Shown: in pieces, positions 31,469 to 38,330 of the stretch | Numbering within the stretch: the first letter of the stretch is position 1 | Layout of the letters: each line of letters opens with the position of its first letter | Source of the DNA: an uncultured Lachnospiraceae bacterium | Lineage (GTDB): Bacteria; Bacillota; Clostridia; Lachnospirales; Lachnospiraceae | Direction: 5' to 3' | Length of the DNA stretch: 59,858 nucleotides | Assembly: GCA_947564735.1 (NCBI GenBank) | Contig: CANOEC010000023.1 | Coordinates: forward strand, 1-59,858 | Position numbers and translations under genes: made by a program | The notes under the pieces: generated by a model | What the model was told of the DNA's origin: nothing | Database searches by the model: none | Seen by the model: the letters and a program-made list of their open reading frames with translations, nothing else

Positions 31469-32893
31469 TTACTCGTTGCTGACTGTGAGCGTGGAAGTAT
31501 CTACCGTCGGGTCGTTGGCGTCGCCTTTCGCCTTGCCAAGATAAGCAAGCGTGCCGTCCTCCTGATAGCGGTAGAAGTAGCTGTAGTTGACATATCCGCT
31601 GTCTTCCTCCTCTCCGGATACAAGCATGAGTTCCACGTAGTTGTCATCGGGAACGAGGTCGTACAGGTATAAAGGTGTTTCCGGCCATGTGGTAAATGAC
31701 TGCGCAAGCTGCGCCTGCACTGCCGTATCCTGCGTCTGGGCAAAGTCGATATCATTGATGAACAGATGCGGCAGGCTTTGGAAAGAACCGTCGTCCGAGA
31801 CGGAATCTTCCGTATAGACAAGGATGGAATCTTCGCTGCCGTCATGGTTTAAATCATAATAGTAAGTCTCTTTGCTGGGCAGTTTCATAACAAATCGGTC
31901 TGTATAGGTATAGGCATTCTGGAAGCCCATGTCGGCCAAATCCTCATAAGGAATGATAAACTCGATGATGCCGGCGGCAAAAGGACCGAGTGCATAAGGA
32001 CCGCTCATGAAGACCAGACCGGAAGTGGACAGATACCATGCATCGTCTGCATACAGCACGGATTCCAGAGTGCCGTCGGTGATGCTGTCCTCTGAAAACA
32101 TCCGTTCTTTATAGTACTCTGTCTTGGCAAGCTTCTGGTTATAGGCGAGCGTGTCTTCGTGAAATGTGTCCGGCTCACTGCTTAAATCAGAAAAAGCAAT
32201 CAAATCACCGGTTTTGGCATTGTAATTGATACCGATGGTGTCATAATTTCCATGGGCGCCGCCCGTGTAAGCATAGTAAGTCATGGTAAAAGAAATGACA
32301 TTACTGTCAGCTCTTCTGGTCTCAAATGACAATTCTTCACTGTAGCCGACAAAGGTGATGCCTTCTTTTTCAAAATTTTCCGGTTCCGATTCAAACATCT
32401 CGAAATATTCTTTGCCCCAAATTTCAACTTCGGGGTTGTCGTTGAAGGAATCCACTCTGGAGCGGATATCTGCGTTGATTTTGTCAGCGGAAGCTTCGTT
32501 TCCCTCTATGGAAACAGAAGGGTAAGAACTGCTCTTGTATAGATATACCGTACCGTCCTCAGCGGATTTATCGTTTTGTTCCTCTGTCATTGTAATTGTA
32601 ATGTGGGACGGCTCGTTACTGACATGGGTGTCAGATTTATCCCCGCTATTTTCGGAAGGGTTGTCTTCCGGAGTCATTTCCGCAGTCTGTCCGTCATTTT
32701 CATTGACGGTGCTATCCGTGGATTGCTGTGTATTATTTTCGGAAAAATCCGACGTGATATCTGAATCGGGTGTCGTCCCGGCATCCGAACCGCACGCAGT
32801 GCAGGTGATGGTTATGCCAAGAAGCAGCGCGCAGGATAAAGCGTAGGATAATGCTTGATTCATTGAGTGTCTGATTAGATCGTTTTTTTTCAT
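31469..32893 (-). CDS. exported DUF3298/RsiV-like lipoprotein
   Basis: A 474-residue protein with an N-terminal signal segment (LSYALSCALLLGITITCTAC) and a possible lipidation Cys, then an acidic Ser/Thr/Asp-rich linker of about 75 residues. The folded part has TYYAYTGGAHGNYDTIGINY and YADDAWYLSTSGLVF, the DUF3298 pattern also found in RsiV. No anti-sigma domain is present. The start at 32893 follows GGAGGACATT. The ligand is unknown. Confidence 0.7.
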   Translation of the reverse strand: MKKNDLIRHSMNQALSYALSCALLLGITITCTACGSDAGTTPDSDITSDFSENNTQQSTDSTVNENDGQTAEMTPEDNPSENSGDKSDTHVSNEPSHITITMTEEQNDKSAEDGTVYLYKSSSYPSVSIEGNEASADKINADIRSRVDSFNDNPEVEIWGKEYFEMFESEPENFEKEGITFVGYSEELSFETRRADSNVISFTMTYYAYTGGAHGNYDTIGINYNAKTGDLIAFSDLSSEPDTFHEDTLAYNQKLAKTEYYKERMFSEDSITDGTLESVLYADDAWYLSTSGLVFMSGPYALGPFAAGIIEFIIPYEDLADMGFQNAYTYTDRFVMKLPSKETYYYDLNHDGSEDSILVYTEDSVSDDGSFQSLPHLFINDIDFAQTQDTAVQAQLAQSFTTWPETPLYLYDLVPDDNYVELMLVSGEEEDSGYVNYSYFYRYQEDGTLAYLGKAKGDANDPTVDTSTLTVSNE

Positions 32894-33062
32894 AATGTCC
32901 TCCATAATTCCTGTTGCCTGTCGATGGAAAATGCATTTGCTATTGATTATAGTATATATTCAATCCGGCTAAATTATTATTAAGGTATGGATTAGTATGA
33001 CAGTTTGGGAATAAAATAGCAAGGCTATTTCATGAAATGATGCAAAAAAGATGCAAACGAAT

Positions 33063-33087
33063 AACCGCACCCGGAACCGGATGCGGT
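33063..33087 (-). terminator. flagellin transcript terminator
   Basis: ACCGCACCCGG pairs with CCGGATGCGGT around AA, with one mismatch. It lies about 80 bases after the flagellin stop on the minus strand, followed by a T-rich stretch. Confidence 0.6.
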
Positions 33088-33166
33088 CATTCTTACACAA
33101 CATATGAACTCTTATTATGATATTCCGAATACTTACGCCGAAAACGCTTGTATTGGAGGATATCCA

Positions 33167-34054
33167 TTAACCGAGTAAGGACAGTGCCAGCTGGTTGGAC
33201 TGGTTCGCCTGTGACAGCATGGATGTACCGGCCTGCTGTAAGATGTTGTTGTTCGCGTACTTAACCATCTCTGTAGCGATGTCGGTATCACGGATTGCTG
33301 CTTCAGCGCTCTGTGTATTTTCTACTACGTTGTCAAGGTTGTTTACTGTGTGCTCCAGTCTGTTCTGTACCGCACCGAGCTCGGAACGCTGTCTGGATAC
33401 TTCTTTAATCATTCCTTTGACAACTTTATTCAAACTATTAAAGTCTGTCTCTTTCAATTCCTGAGTACCATCGAAGGGCGTTGCAATTTTAAAGTCCTTA
33501 AACTTTGAGATATCTGCGCCACCTCCCGAAGCCTGTGCCGCAGCAGAGCCTTCCAAAGATGCAAAGTTCATATTCTGGATAGTAATACCGATGTGCTGAC
33601 CTGCCTCTGCACCTACCTGAAGATCCTTTTTGATAAATGAGCCATCTAACAGATTCTGTTCATTGAATGTGGTGGTATCACGTACACGGTCGATTTCGTC
33701 AATTAACTGCTTAACTTCCATAGCAATATAAGCGCGGTCTGTACTGGTCTGCGTAGCGTTCTCGCCCTTAACTGCCAGCTCGTTGATACGCTGTAACATA
33801 TCATGAACTTCTGTCAGTGCGCCTTCTGCTGTCTGCACTGCGCTGATACCATCCTGTGCGTTGGCGGACGCCTGTGTAAGACCTCTTACCTGACGTCTCA
33901 TCTTTTCGGAAATCGCAAGACCTGCCGCGTCGTCTGCCGCACGGTTAATCTTGTAACCGGAAGATAACTTCTCTGTGGACTTTGCCTGTGCGCTTGTTGT
34001 AAGACCAAGCATTCTGTTGGAATTCATTGCTGTAATGTTGTGTTTTACTATCAT
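33167..34054 (-). CDS. fliC: flagellin
   Basis: A 295-residue flagellin with the conserved N-terminal D0/D1 region (VKHNITAMNSNRMLG, EKLSSGYKINRAADDAAGLA, ISAVQTAEGAL) and C-terminal region ending SQANQSNQLALSLLG. The variable middle is very short, as in many Clostridia. AAGGAGG lies 7 bases before the ATG. No sigma-28 promoter was found between csrA and this gene. The nearest one lies inside the invertible segment at 34591-35420, in the wrong orientation, so the gene may be off in this sequence. Confidence 0.94.
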   Translation of the reverse strand: MIVKHNITAMNSNRMLGLTTSAQAKSTEKLSSGYKINRAADDAAGLAISEKMRRQVRGLTQASANAQDGISAVQTAEGALTEVHDMLQRINELAVKGENATQTSTDRAYIAMEVKQLIDEIDRVRDTTTFNEQNLLDGSFIKKDLQVGAEAGQHIGITIQNMNFASLEGSAAAQASGGGADISKFKDFKIATPFDGTQELKETDFNSLNKVVKGMIKEVSRQRSELGAVQNRLEHTVNNLDNVVENTQSAEAAIRDTDIATEMVKYANNNILQQAGTSMLSQANQSNQLALSLLG

Positions 34055-34061
34055 AAAATAA

Positions 34062-34097
34062 CCTCCTTGTGTGTGCCTGCCGCGAATCCTTTCGCGG
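34062..34097 (-). promoter_or_regulatory. CsrA-binding sites in the flagellin mRNA leader
   Basis: On the minus strand, CCGCGAA-AGGA-TTCGCGG (34097-34080) is a perfect 7-bp hairpin presenting AGGA in the loop. The Shine-Dalgarno CAAGGAGG (34068-34062) offers a second AGGA 12 bases downstream. In Bacillus subtilis CsrA binds two such sites in the hag leader and blocks the ribosome site. Assignment here rests on motif and on csrA being next door. Confidence 0.7.
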
Positions 34098-34140
34098 TAT
34101 TGCTTACTATATTTAGTTGTTGATTTGGCGGAACCCCGCC

Positions 34141-34271
34141 GGATTGCGTCACCAAATTCGCGGAGCGAATCTCAAAAATGAGAAGGTGGTGTATTTCACC
34201 GAGTTCGCGGAGCGTAGCTCGTTTTTGTATAATAATCCCGACGCCCCTAGGATAGCGTCAGGTTATTACCC
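34141..34271. repeat. hairpin-rich repeat between csrA and flagellin
   Basis: Plus-strand hairpins ATTCGC-GGA-GCGAAT and CGAG-TTCGC-GGA-GCG-TAGCTCG resemble the GAA-triloop family but with GGA loops. A further long stem joins GTATAATAATCCCGACGC (34227-34244) to GCGTCAGGTTATTAC with a bulge. The segment fills the csrA-flagellin gap and would lie in a csrA-flagellin transcript. It has no T tract. Confidence 0.5.
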
Positions 34272-34274
34272 TGC

Positions 34275-34520
34275 TTAATTGTGGTTTCTTTTGTGGCGGT
34301 ACTTTTCCGGAAGCTCCGGCACCGCGTGATAATGTACAAGTTTTTTCTTTTCTTCCGGGTCAGTTATCCGCTCTTCGATAACTTTGCTGCGGACGACGTT
34401 TACTTCCTTCGGTATATCTAGCATGATGCGGGTGTGATTTTTGCTGCCGCCTAAGAAAACAATTTTGATGTCGTCGCCAATCATCAAATATTCTTCTGTC
34501 TTTACCGTTAGTCTTAACAT
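34275..34520 (-). CDS. csrA: CsrA-like carbon storage/flagellin translation regulator
   Basis: An 81-residue protein matching CsrA over 50 residues: MLRLTVKTEEYLMIGDDIKI, then RIMLDIPKEVNVVRSK. Arg44, the main RNA-contact residue, is kept, but position 6 is Val where CsrA normally has Arg. The C-terminal 30 residues are basic. GGGAGG precedes the start. CsrA binds GGA motifs in mRNA leaders and in Firmicutes represses flagellin translation. The partner FliW is not in this window. It lies directly upstream of, and in line with, flagellin. Confidence 0.75.
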   Translation of the reverse strand: MLRLTVKTEEYLMIGDDIKIVFLGGSKNHTRIMLDIPKEVNVVRSKVIEERITDPEEKKKLVHYHAVPELPEKYRHKRNHN

Positions 34521-34529
34521 GTTTATACC

Positions 34530-34569
34530 TCCCTGCATCTCTTTATTTTGATAAAGCTGCATCCCTGCA
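34530..34569 (-). promoter_or_regulatory. possible CsrA autoregulation sites
   Basis: The csrA leader (minus strand) has two copies of TGCAGGGA. The upstream one can form TGCA-GGGA-TGCA (34569-34558) with GGA in the loop; the other (34537-34530) overlaps the ribosome site GGGAGG. This mirrors the two-site layout before flagellin. Confidence 0.45.
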
Positions 34570-34590
34570 CTTTCTGGTTTGTAGAACCAA

Positions 34591-34619
34591 ATGCAACAGT
34601 TGTATAAGAAGTGTTGCAT
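34591..34619 (+). repeat. left inverted recombination site (IRL)
   Basis: Arms ATGCAACAGTT (34591-34601) and AAGTGTTGCAT (34609-34619) flank the 7-base spacer GTATAAG. Two inverted 11-bp arms around a 7-bp crossover region is the usual core-site layout for tyrosine recombinases. The outer arm has one change (G for C) from the perfect palindrome. Confidence 0.82.
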
Positions 34620-34704
34620 TCAAAGCCAAGAGCAGAACGTTACTTTTACAACGAATAGTTGTATAGTGATGTGGAATTAAAAATGGACGCAAAGGAGAAT
34701 TGAC

Positions 34705-35286
34705 ATGAGTACAACATATCCAATTAAAAGTGAAGAAAAACTGGAAAAAATAAAAGAATATTATTTTACGGTAAAGCCAGAGAGCCGGAATTACGCAATG
34801 ATTATTCTTGGTCTGAATACTGCATTCAGAATCAGCGATTTACTAATGCTTCGGTGGCGGGACGTATATAATAAGAAGAAAGGATGCTTCCGGGAACATA
34901 TCTGTGTGATAGAACATAAGACAGGCAAGGAGCGAAGCGTTGCAGTGAATGCGAATGTTCATAAAGCGCTCAGTATCCTGCGTGAAGAAAATGCAGAGAT
35001 AGAGGAGGAGCGTTATCTTTTTTCTAACGGAAGGAAGGCAGAGACGCATCTGTCCCGTTCACAGGCATTCCGTATCATCAAGGAAGCAGCGGAATATGCC
35101 GGTCTGGATGAACATGTCAGTTGCCATTCGCTCCGTAAAACGTTTGGATATCATGCTTGGAAGCAGGGAGTACAGCCGGCATTGTTGATGGAGTTGTACA
35201 ATCACTCTTCCTATCGTGTTACGAAGAAATATCTGTGTATCGAGCAGGAGGATAAGGACAGAGTATATTTGAACGTCCAGCTATAG
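34705..35286 (+). CDS. tyrosine recombinase (phage-integrase family) of the invertible segment
   Basis: A compact 193-residue recombinase, essentially the catalytic domain alone, like FimB/FimE-type inversion enzymes. The catalytic set is complete: Arg42, Lys72, His141-x-x-Arg144, His167 and nucleophile Tyr176. It lies between the inverted sites and is probably the enzyme that flips them. AAAGGAGAATTGAC precedes the ATG. A weak promoter (TTACTT 34640-34645, TATAGT 34662-34667) lies just inside the left site, so the gene would be expressed in both orientations. Confidence 0.87.
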   Translation: MSTTYPIKSEEKLEKIKEYYFTVKPESRNYAMIILGLNTAFRISDLLMLRWRDVYNKKKGCFREHICVIEHKTGKERSVAVNANVHKALSILREENAEIEEERYLFSNGRKAETHLSRSQAFRIIKEAAEYAGLDEHVSCHSLRKTFGYHAWKQGVQPALLMELYNHSSYRVTKKYLCIEQEDKDRVYLNVQL

Positions 35287-35346
35287 CGGTTTGTTCGCGG
35301 ATTTTTAAGGATTACACTTATTATAAAAAAAATTTCAATTTACCCC

Positions 35347-35373
35347 TAAAGTATTTTACAACGGCACCGATAT
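35347..35373 (+). promoter_or_regulatory. sigma-28 (flagellar) promoter inside the invertible segment
   Basis: TAAA (35347-35350), exactly 15 bases, then ACCGATAT (35366-35373). The extended -35 reads TAAAGTAT against the consensus TAAAGTTT, and the -10 ACCGATAT against GCCGATAA. In this orientation it reads right, away from flagellin, into the terminator at the right site. After inversion it would start a transcript a few bases before the left site, entering csrA and then flagellin. Confidence 0.72.
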
Positions 35374-35391
35374 ATAAAGTGTAAGGCAAAA

Positions 35392-35420
35392 ATGCAACAC
35401 TTCTTATACAAGTGTTGCAT
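35392..35420 (-). repeat. right inverted recombination site (IRR), also a terminator
   Basis: Arms ATGCAACACTT (35392-35402) and AAGTGTTGCAT (35410-35420) are perfect complements around CTTATAC, the reverse complement of the left spacer. A run of A precedes and six T (35420-35425) follow, so the site also reads as an intrinsic terminator for the recombinase and sigma-28 transcripts in this orientation. Confidence 0.82.
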
Positions 35421-35428
35421 TTTTTGGT

Positions 35429-35578
35429 TATAGGAAATTTCTCCAAAGCCTGGAAGAATGCGAAGCATTCTTCCGAACATAATGCCGAAGGCATTTTGTT
35501 CTTATATAGGAAATTCCTTCAAAGAGTGGAAGAACCGAAGGTTCTTCCCAAGATAATTGCGAAGCAATTTTCTTGTCT
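35429..35578 (+). repeat. tandem pair of GAA-triloop hairpin repeats
   Basis: Unit 1 (35429-35506) holds GAAGAATGC-GAA-GCATTCTTC and AATGCC-GAA-GGCATT. Unit 2 (35505-35578) holds GGAAGAACC-GAA-GGTTCTTCC and AATTGC-GAA-GCAATT. Both begin TATAGGAAAT and end in a TTTTCTT- or TTGTTCTTATA-like tail. The pair starts nine bases after the right recombination site. The rest of 35287-35817 has no gene apart from the sigma-28 promoter and the site. Confidence 0.8.
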
Positions 35579-35817
35579 GTACCACAATAAAACAGGGTAA
35601 CAATATTATATCCTTATGGTGTGGTGATTAGTCTTTACAGAGGTTTTTTATCATCAAAAAAGAGTTGACAACTTTACTTTTGCATGAAATATTTAGTCCG
35701 TTTAATACATCTTTTTGTCATAAGGGTTCTGAGGTTCTTTCTTTTTATTCAAATGCATTTCCCTTATACTTATTAAATTACATCTATTCCCTCGCTGATA
35801 AAAACCCGTCCGGCAAC

Positions 35818-36656
35818 ATGTTTATTGATAACGCATGGCTTTCTGCTACCGGACCCGTCCCAATCCGCATGACCAATGATTATCTCTTCCGGGCTCTCTT
35901 ACAACGCAGTAACAATACTTTAAAGGGCTTAATTTGCTCTCTGCTGCATCTTTGCGCTGACGAGATTGTGTCTGTAATCATTATGAATCCGATTGAATTA
36001 GGAAAAAACTTTGGTTCTAAGGATTTTTCCTTGATATCAAAGTATCACTTAATAATCGGATGGTCGTCCATCTGGAAATGCAGGTCATTAACCAGTACAA
36101 CTGGACGGAGCGCTCCCTAAGCTATTTGTGCAGAACTTTTGATGAATTGGAGACGGGAGAGGGATACCGGCAGGCAAGACCGGTTATCCAGATTGGGCTG
36201 TTGGACTACACTCTGTTTCCCGAATATCCCGAATTTTATGCGACCTACGAATTCAGAAATACGAAAAATCATCATCTGTATAGTGACAAGCTTCGCCTCT
36301 GTGTGTTAGACTTAAACCGTATCGACCTTGCAACCGAAGAGGACAGGTTCTACAAAATTGATTACTGGGCTTCTCTCTTTAAAGCCACTACATGGGAGGA
36401 AATTAAAATGCTTGCTAAGGACAATGTTTATATCAATGATGCTGCATCCACTGTTTACCGTTTCAGTCAAGAGGAGACGATACGCCTGCAATGTGAAGCG
36501 CGCGAAGATTATTACCGTACCCAGCATGATATTCAGTATGAGATGGAGCAACGCGATGCGAAGCTTGCGGAGAAAGAAGCCGCCCTCAAAGCTCTTGCCG
36601 CAGACAACGAAAAACTTCTCGCATGGGCGTTAGAGCACGGATATCAGCCGGAGTAA
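35818..36656 (+). pseudogene. Rpn-type PD-(D/E)XK nuclease/transposase with frameshift
   Basis: The first frame (35818 to about 36030) encodes the usual N-terminal region, PIRMTNDYLFRALLQRSNN. A second frame then takes over with LDIKVSLNNRMVVHLEMQ (Asp, and Glu-x-Gln active-site region) and continues to 36656 with a helical tail. The switch happens at the T run near 36027, consistent with loss of one base just before the catalytic Asp. Members promote RecA-independent recombination or act as transposases. No good ribosome site is seen. A mobile-gene relic is most likely. Confidence 0.75.
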
Positions 36657-36670
36657 TTAATAATTATGCT

Positions 36671-36698
36671 TTTCAACCCAAACTCTTTGTGTTATAAT
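36671..36698 (+). promoter_or_regulatory. promoter of the first amino acid ABC operon
   Basis: TATAAT (36693-36698) with an extended -10 TG just upstream; the -35 (TTTCAA, 36671-36676) is weak. Confidence 0.55.
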
Positions 36699-36718
36699 GC
36701 GAGTCGGGAATTGTGTAA

Positions 36719-36755
36719 TGCATATATATGCAGAGTATGCATAATCTGCATATAT
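36719..36755. promoter_or_regulatory. ArgR-like palindromes in the leader
   Basis: TGCATATATATGCA (36719-36732) is a perfect palindrome fitting the ARG-box form TGNAT-N4-ATNCA. It overlaps an 11-bp inverted repeat (36724-36734 with 36745-36755) that could form an RNA hairpin. The site lies just after the promoter and may be a repressor site for amino acid control. The identity of the regulator is a guess. Confidence 0.35.
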
Positions 36756-36819
36756 AAATAGGAAATAAACCGGAATATGCAGGCAGAGGCAGTCCGGGTG
36801 AGTGAAAGGATAGAGACAA

Positions 36820-37518
36820 ATGACAGGGATTCAAGCGTGGTTTTCTGATTTCTGCAATTCATTTGAGAAATGTTTTATCAGAGAAGACCGTTATATGTTG
36901 TTGCTAAACGGAATCGGCATCACGATTAAGATTTCGATTCTGGCGGTTTTTATTGGCATCCTGATTGGTATGCTGATTGCGATGTGCAATCTTTCTAAAA
37001 GAAAACTGCCGAAGATATTTGGAGGCATTTATACGGATGTGATTCGGGGAACGCCTTCCGTTACCCAGTTGATGATTATCTATTTTGTCATTTTTGCGAC
37101 GGTGAATCTGGATAAGTGGATTATTGCAGCGATTGCCTTTGGCGTCAACTCCGGCGCGTATGTGTCGGAAATCATAAGGGGCGGAATCCTCTCGGTAGAC
37201 CATGGACAGACCGAGGCAGGCAGGTCGCTTGGGCTTAATGCTTTTCAGACGATGACGAGAATCGTGATTCCTCAGGCGGTCAAGAATATTTTCCCGGCGT
37301 TATGTAATGAGTTTATTGTATTGATTAAGGAAACGGCTATCGTCGGTTATGTGGGGCTGATGGACATCCAGAAAGCGGGTGATTTTATCAAGAGCGCCAC
37401 CTTTGAAGCATTTATGCCGTTGGTAGGAACAGCCGTAATATACTATGTGCTGATTAAGATATTGACGCTGATACTCCGTCAGATTGAAAAGCAGCTGCGA
37501 AAATCTGATGTCAGGTAG
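36820..37518 (+). CDS. amino acid ABC transporter permease (HisM/GlnP type)
   Basis: A 232-residue permease with about five membrane segments and the EAA loop [20 protein letters not shown] that contacts the ATPase. The N-terminal [16 protein letters not shown] segment is typical of polar amino acid permeases. A single permease implies a homodimer. The ATPase gene follows 20 bases later and the binding protein at 38467. Confidence 0.9.
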
Positions 37519-37538: not shown

Positions 37539-38261
37539 ATGATTCAAGTAAAGAATTTACATAAAAAATTCGGAGACCTGACAGTTTTAGACGGAATTGA
37601 CGAGCATATTTCCCAAGGAGAAGTGGTCGTCGTCATCGGACCATCCGGTTCGGGCAAAAGTACGTTTCTCAGATGCTTAAATCTGCTGGAAAATGCAACT
37701 GACGGTGAGATTTATGTGGACGACCAGCTGATTAACGCGCCGAAGGTGAACGTGAATCACGTCAGACAGAAAATGGGAATGGTATTCCAGCAATTTAATT
37801 TGTTCCCGCATCTTACGATTATGGACAATATTACGCTGGCGCCGGTGCTTCTTAAGAAAATGACGAAGGAGGAGGCTGTCAGAAGAGGGCGGGAGCTTTT
37901 GGAACGGGTGAATCTGTCCGAGAAGGCGAATGCTTATCCTGCGCAGTTATCCGGCGGTCAGAAACAGCGTGTTGCGATTGCGAGGGCACTCGCGATGAAT
38001 CCGGAAATTATGCTTTTTGACGAGCCGACTTCAGCGCTTGACCCTGAGATGGTAGGCGAGGTGTTAGACGTTATGAAGGATTTGGCAAAATCCGGCATGA
38101 CGATGGTCATTGTTACTCACGAGATGGGATTTGCCAGAGAGGTTGCTTCCAGAGTGCTTTTTATTGACCAAGGGAAAGTGATGGAGAGCGGTACGCCGGA
38201 GGAAGTGTTCACCAATCCGAAGAATGAAAGAACAAAGCTGTTCTTAAGTAAAGTTTTATAG
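37539..38261 (+). CDS. amino acid ABC transporter ATP-binding protein (GlnQ/HisP type)
   Basis: A 240-residue ATPase: Walker [11 protein letters not shown]-loop [10 protein letters not shown], signature LSGGQKQR, Walker [15 protein letters not shown] and VTHEMGFA. Strongly typical of polar amino acid importers. Its TAG stop lies within the first bases (TATAGG) of a hairpin repeat, so the repeat abuts or has replaced the original 3' end. Confidence 0.92.
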
Positions 38262-38330
38262 GAAAATTTTTCAAAGCGTGGAAGAACCGAAGGTTCTTCC
38301 CAAGATAATCTGCGAAGCAGATTTTCTTAT
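38257..38330 (+). repeat. GAA-triloop hairpin repeat at the end of the ATPase gene
   Basis: Starts TATAGGAAAATTTTTCAAAG, contains GGAAGAACC-GAA-GGTTCTTCC and AATCTGC-GAA-GCAGATT, and ends ATTTTCTTAT. The first hairpin and flanks match unit 2 at 35505. It lies between the ATPase and binding-protein genes and could set mRNA stability across the operon. Confidence 0.8.

Follow-up and report, generated by a model that had tools for sequence, protein, structure and literature searches.

The closest described counterpart of the locus analysed here is the Salmonella flagellar switch, in which hin lies inside the invertible segment and fljBA is under sigma-28 control. Described as the Hin/hixL-hixR/fljBA system of flagellar phase variation (PMC9368917), it depends on a serine recombinase (PMC11868660); here and below, cited statements on published systems follow excerpts of the papers. 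An uncultured Lachnospiraceae bacterium (assembly GCA_947564735.1; 4.5 Mb in 102 contigs) carries, on contig C23 (CANOEC010000023.1; 59.9 kb, the whole stretch analysed and hereafter the window), a recombinase gene and a promoter between two inverted sites, next to a diverged csrA paralog and a flagellin gene. The locus is very probably a self-contained phase-variation switch, in which the recombinase would invert the segment, the promoter would drive csrA-flagellin when ON, and the flagellin leader is a candidate for CsrA binding. Judged from sequence, this reading is well supported by comparison: the anatomy is conserved, one relative is naturally ON, the spacers of paired sites match, the site hairpins are asymmetric and RNA sites are conserved.

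As in Hin-fljBA, recombinase gene and promoter share one invertible segment, and the output is an alternative flagellin with a linked regulator, another flagellin being encoded elsewhere. Unlike Hin, the recombinase matches only PF00589 (tyrosine family) and not the serine recombinases, and the sites are unrelated to those of Hin (hix sites were not themselves searched for). The regulator is of the CsrA type, with its gene ahead of flagellin, whereas FljA acts on fliC. The original prediction called the locus a distinct design, but the layout is that of Salmonella, and the module is thus a tyrosine-recombinase counterpart of Hin-fljBA, with another recombinase class and another regulator, rather than something wholly distinct.

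Other switches share single traits with the locus. The FimB and FimE genes of Escherichia coli lie outside the segment that their products flip, and the output is fimbriae; here the recombinase gene is within the segment and the output is flagellin. Common to both is a promoter-bearing segment flipped by recombinases in fim (PMC2784873) and predicted to be so here. With the Clostridioides difficile flagellar switch the locus shares a clostridial tyrosine recombinase, DNA inversion and a flagellar output. In that switch, which acts after transcription initiation, a segment of 154 bp bounded by 21-bp repeats precedes the flgB operon, and its recombinase RecV also serves cwpV (PMC5386303). The segment belongs to a 5' UTR, contains no promoter and does not encode its recombinase; here, in contrast, promoter and recombinase are inside the segment and one flagellin unit would be controlled. 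For cwpV, an OFF-specific intrinsic terminator was proposed at the junction of repeat and segment (PMC2784873). An OFF-orientation terminator is likewise proposed here, but the cwpV promoter is outside its segment, whereas here the segment contains the promoter, and the terminator-like hairpin is the distal recombination site itself.

Among the matches listed in the open literature, as excerpted, no description of the module was found; subscription papers and the supplementary tables of inversion surveys fall outside that scope, and such loci may have been listed earlier as anonymous invertons. If the reading is correct, flagellin expression in these commensals would be heterogeneous, orientation-dependent and readable from metagenomic reads; antibody responses to gut-microbiota flagellins have been studied in human disease (PMC11285207, PMC9174456). 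The locus would also illustrate clearly how a tyrosine recombinase can arrive at the layout of the Hin switch, here combined with a CsrA paralog dedicated to it and with a recombination site that is terminator-like in one orientation only.

Architecture of the locus

The left, csrA-side recombination site (34589..34620; arms 34591-34601 and 34609-34619, spacer 34602-34608) was located by inverted-repeat comparison and a genome pattern search, and the right, distal site (35391..35422; spacer 35403-35409) by inverted-repeat comparison. They are inverted copies alike at 31/32 positions. The 29-bp core of each consists of two 11-bp arms around a 7-bp spacer (GTATAAG and CTTATAC), and on re-reading the sequence the coordinates, arms and reverse-complement spacers given for these cores in the original prediction were correct. 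The left site has one mismatch between its own two arms, its palindrome being broken in the outer arm, as in many relatives. No other inverted pair with at least 23/26 matches and a spacing of 40-3000 nt occurs in the window, and across the 4.5-Mb genome the site pattern (up to three mismatches) recurs at a single further locus, with no match in a backward-read control.

Between the sites lie the tyrosine recombinase gene and a sigma-28-type promoter; csrA and then flagellin follow to the left on the minus strand. The recombinase (34705..35286, plus strand, 193 aa) has Phage_integrase (PF00589, E=1.2e-24) as its only Pfam domain. The catalytic residues proposed earlier (R42, K72, H141, R144, H167 and Y176) are invariant in 12 aligned recombinases, that is, the window's and those of 11 chosen relatives. 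A PDB search with its predicted structure (mean pLDDT, the predicted local distance difference test score, 76.6; low past about residue 140) gave Xer-type recombinases, XerA being the best (E 7.4e-08), consistent with the sequence search, which also gave XerA (E 5.3e-15). A phage integrase domain and a nearby frame of the PDDEXK transposase family (36060-36656) would also fit what is left of a mobile element that carried an integrase and plays no part in regulation. Such an origin is highly improbable, given that csrA and/or flagellin adjoin 51/57 recombinase copies in the genus (all 57 inspected with flanks), that the internal promoter keeps a constant place and that the sites are paired.

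The promoter (TAAAGTATTTTACAACGGCACCGATAT; 35347..35373, plus strand), identified by weight matrix and by conservation in relatives, is now directed away from csrA-flagellin. It has the form TAAA-N15-ACCGATAT and ends 18 bases ahead of the 29-bp right site. On a matrix built from 38 switch promoters, the window's own included, it scores 33.1 bits, and no other site in the window exceeds 12 bits; ahead of csrA the best score is -8.5, and ahead of flagellin it is -2.8. Both the near-consensus sigma-28 promoter predicted inside the segment near the right site and the lack of another one between csrA and flagellin are therefore borne out. The consensus TAAA-N14-16-NCCGATAT alone is no rarity, with 30 matches in the genome versus 7 in a backward control. 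The TAAA / CGATA form agrees with the Butyrivibrio sigma-28 consensus, which has been applied to Roseburia and Eubacterium flagellins (PMC3720852).

The same matrix was applied to non-switch flagellins in two groups. The first took one gene per genome from 20 genomes with the switch, together with the C10 flagellin of the window's genome; the second came from 20 genomes that lack the csrA module, among them G035 and G041, where a distant recombinase is present. Scores above 10 bits were obtained in 18/21 and 15/20 genomes, respectively, and 29 of these 33 promoters lie 155-168 nt before the start codon. As none of them entered the matrix, they provide an independent check that the switch promoter is of the flagellin type. 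Sigma-28 control of the switched flagellin is likely, and the promoter would depend on FliA, which is encoded in the genome.

Orientation, spacers and terminator-like sites

By promoter direction, 55 of 69 csrA/flagellin loci are OFF, one is ON and 13 are undecided; the excess of OFF loci may reflect the majority state in the samples or biased switching. In the ON locus, L087, comparison with six relatives shows the element reversed and the csrA side unchanged in orientation. Alignment on the csrA side ends at most about 20 nt from the site in 5/6 relatives; the distal flank has no match in them, so the flanks show the csrA-side break only. The promoter of L087 faces csrA-flagellin at 114 nt from csrA, compared with 119 nt in the window after inversion. 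A related genome thus holds the opposite orientation, as a natural example of the state that inversion of the window's outward-pointing promoter was predicted to produce. Three loci (L178, L183, L184) are OFF with the recombinase facing csrA and the promoter at the opposite end, pointing away; all are in other genera and represent a second arrangement, in which promoter and recombinase stand at opposite ends and diverge.

Of the 96 elements scanned for sites, 74 yielded a pair. The left and right spacer 7-mers are identical in 68/74 (shuffled mean 4.0, maximum 13), as determined by a site finder that takes the best-matching pair and so favours spacer identity; 40 different right-hand 7-mers occur among the 74. 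Spacers matched within loci but varied between them require either continued exchange or selection. Against the finder's preference stands that, across 48 loci of the genus, the outer arms often differ within a pair, whereas spacers and inner arms hardly do (adjacent columns being pooled by rounding). Copies within one genome have different spacers in 8/8 genus genomes with at least two spacers read, and distinct spacers would keep neighbouring switches apart.

Together with the A/T runs on either side (35388-35424), the right site makes up a 15-bp inverted repeat without mismatch, which is terminator-like for the promoter as now oriented. In all 56 oriented loci, the computed OFF-side hairpin is stronger and its tail more U-rich than on the ON side, with means of -16.0 versus -8.2 kcal/mol and 7.0 versus 1.5 U in 10 positions (window: -15.5 versus -9.7 kcal/mol; 6 versus 3 U). 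Termination at the distal site in OFF would agree with this asymmetry.

On the proposed mechanism, the recombinase would invert its own segment by strand exchange within the 7-bp spacers of the two palindromic sites, and flipping would be active in the window's strain. In the assembled OFF state, the promoter would fire outward into the terminator-like hairpin of the distal site, leaving csrA-flagellin without a sigma-28-type promoter. In ON, it would stand 119 nt upstream of csrA, and transcription would pass the csrA-side site, with its weaker hairpin and few U's, to give a csrA-flagellin mRNA. The CsrA paralog made from it would probably bind the GGA hairpin and the Shine-Dalgarno sequence of the leader, thereby setting translation of the extra flagellin.

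Several observations weigh against the switch reading. A static element would produce the observed bias too, with ON seen in only 1/56 oriented loci, and the two orientations are seen across species only, one genome per species having been compared. The pattern used finds no promoter in 13/69 loci, 10 of them in other genera. Spacers differ in 6/74 elements (L071, L105, L174, L186, L191, L196), and the site finder's preference for matching pairs counts on the same side. Four non-switch flagellins in the window's genome score just 10.5, 3.9, 3.0 and -5.6 bits; by eye, the one on C10 has TAAA and GTCGATAC spaced one base wider. GGA-loop hairpins like those of the switched leaders (see below) also precede non-switch flagellins, and a simple terminator scan of the window did not flag the right site, probably since its stem count absorbs the A/T run. 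Incomplete copies exist as well: L089 and L177 have a stop in the recombinase (matches in L089 fall in two pieces, the outer bounds of which served only for element placement), L064 has a shortened recombinase and no site pair, and L164, in a single-contig genome, has one site and no csrA.

The broken and partial copies, like the 55/56 OFF loci, would suit a segment that is no longer flipped and is locked OFF in nearly all species, L087 being one old rearrangement. This explanation is improbable: the catalytic residues are invariant in the 12 aligned recombinases, the paired spacers match although they vary between loci, and promoter, csrA, flagellin and leader hairpins have been maintained despite the OFF state. 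The earlier prediction that the switch turns csrA-flagellin on and off is supported by the L087 flip, the spacer matching and the conservation, but it concerns one or two flagellins among several.

The csrA paralog and RNA elements of the predicted switched unit

The first gene of the switched unit (34275..34520, minus strand, 81 aa) was assigned with Pfam and NCBIfam. Its start was placed at 34520 by CsrA homology and a Shine-Dalgarno sequence, and a longer open frame reaching into the site was set aside. The product scores 60.7 bits against PF02599 (cut-off 27) but lies below the NCBIfam CsrA equivalog cut-offs (39.4 versus 73 and 37 versus 70.1 bits); passing Pfam with about half of the equivalog cut-offs marks it as a diverged CsrA paralog. 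The second gene (33167..34054, minus strand, 295 aa) encodes a flagellin according to Pfam. Of the 78 genus genomes, 39 have the csrA paralog (E <= 1e-8), every one together with the recombinase, and it is absent from the 37 without it and from the two with a distant recombinase only (G035 and G041); these counts run over related genomes, and relatedness inflates the agreement. The window's genome has three CsrA matches: the window's, that of the second switch and a 72-aa one beside fliW, this fliW-csrA pair being located away from the switches. In L076, L080 and L087, a tandem pair of csrA-flagellin units lies beside one switch.

The flagellin leader contains two candidate CsrA sites on the minus strand, a GGA-loop hairpin (CCGCGAA-AGGA-UUCGCGG, 34080..34097) and the GGA-containing Shine-Dalgarno sequence AAGGAGG (34062..34068). 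Such a hairpin is present in 59/67 flagellin leaders, in most cases at a distance of 30-35 nt from the start codon, compared with a mean of 1.85 and a maximum of 6 in 60 shuffles; GGA occurs within the last 20 nt of all 67, the window's included. The hag leader of Bacillus subtilis has the same two-site form, a GGA hairpin plus a Shine-Dalgarno GGA. Unlike in hag-CsrA-FliW, the csrA paralog here is diverged, has no fliW neighbour and would be co-switched with its putative target, to whose leader the paralog would bind. Inhibition of flagellin by CsrA is also named in an excerpted study (PMC3720852).

CsrA-type hairpins confined to switch genomes would have pointed to FljA-like repression of other flagellins; hairpins precede non-switch flagellins in 13/21 switch genomes and 9/20 others, which is no difference. 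The paralog may repress non-switch flagellins, for which the hairpin counts offer no specific support. A wider scheme, convergent with that of Salmonella, is offered tentatively: the sites would act as orientation-specific terminators, the CsrA paralog would tune its own flagellin and repress the fixed ones, inversion would swap filament types and distinct spacers would allow combinatorial filaments.

Between csrA and flagellin lies a structured RNA (34219..34278, minus strand), recognised by covariation and model search, with a 14-bp stem and a loop around UAUCCUAGGG (UAUCCURGGG across the family of sequences). Across 50 sequences, base pairs fill 94.3% of cells, and the covariation of 0.375 exceeds that of shuffles (0.204; 0/500 as high) and of slid versions (0.064-0.149); the structure was drawn from the same 50 sequences as were tested, and one row of the alignment (L097) was trimmed by 8 nt by hand. 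Most modules share this hairpin. At E < 0.01, the model recovers 12/21 additional csrA/flagellin loci; searched against the genome of the window, it finds the two switch loci only (150/1025 first-look candidates scored). Rfam gave no accepted match to this RNA in 32000-37000 of the window; rli22 (E=0.74) and STnc250 (E=0.97), both under the gathering score, were dismissed as chance. The simple terminator scan flagged the hairpin as terminator-like. At a guess, the stem stabilises or processes the flagellin part of the message.

Flagellin repertoire, distribution and neighbouring features

A second complete module on contig C44 has a recombinase 66% identical to the window's, sites alike at 30/30 positions, csrA and flagellin; its promoter is TAAAGTATCTTACAACAGCACCGATAT, and its spacer is one base off the window's. 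Nine Flagellin_N matches occur in the genome, two in the switches, six elsewhere (three on C1 and one each on C10, C16 and C73) and one on C43, which resembles FlgL. The six matches outside the switches bear on whether inversion might govern motility as a whole, as in the C. difficile flagellar switch, a view with which a flagellin output under likely sigma-28 control would fit. It is unlikely to be right: Flagellin_N matches are present throughout the 78 genus genomes, including the 37 without the recombinase, and non-switch flagellins of relatives have fixed sigma-28-type promoters (score above 10 in 18/21 switch genomes). Given these further flagellins with fixed promoters, the switch probably governs flagellin type instead of motility.

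The recombinase (E <= 1e-40) is found in 41/78 genus genomes, in 57 copies and up to three per genome; those that adjoin neither csrA nor flagellin are L101-L105 and L107. When 50 of the csrA/flagellin copies were scanned for both sites, 48 had site pairs (at least 20/26) and 47 had the promoter, which stops 44-52 nt short of the outer edge of the site 26-mer. Of the remaining three, L077 and L100 contain a motif that resembles it when read by eye. The site analysis excluded L106 and L189, which are truncated by contig ends. Contig ends near the elements appeared frequent by eye and were not used, because flagellin paralogs also break assemblies. In a family sample of 397 genomes, 39 match at E <= 1e-35 (37/334 genera). 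A further 40 family elements were scanned, of which 19 lie beside csrA and/or flagellin, 17 of these with a site pair and 9 with the promoter pattern. A class-wide sample of 391 genomes gave 12 matches at E <= 1e-45; within the flanks retrieved (up to 1.5 kb), neither csrA nor flagellin accompanies any of 16 new recombinase loci from it, and the module is therefore confined to the window's family in that sample.

L101-L105 encode cousin recombinases, 47-48% identical and with inverted sites of their own, in surface-sugar loci. A neighbour scan, which took in L101-L104, gave NeuB, SIS, nucleotidyl transferase and epimerase matches among L101, L103 and L104 and a glycerophosphotransferase in L102. 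The cousins may switch surface-glycan genes in the genus.

An intergenic repeat with short palindromes is present in three copies in the window (35428-35458, 35504-35534 and 38256-38286). A pattern guessed for a dispersed repeat gave 0 matches. The PDDEXK_2 frame lies just beyond the right site, overlapped and preceded by a frame without match (35665-36120), and the two are perhaps a single gene split by a frameshift.

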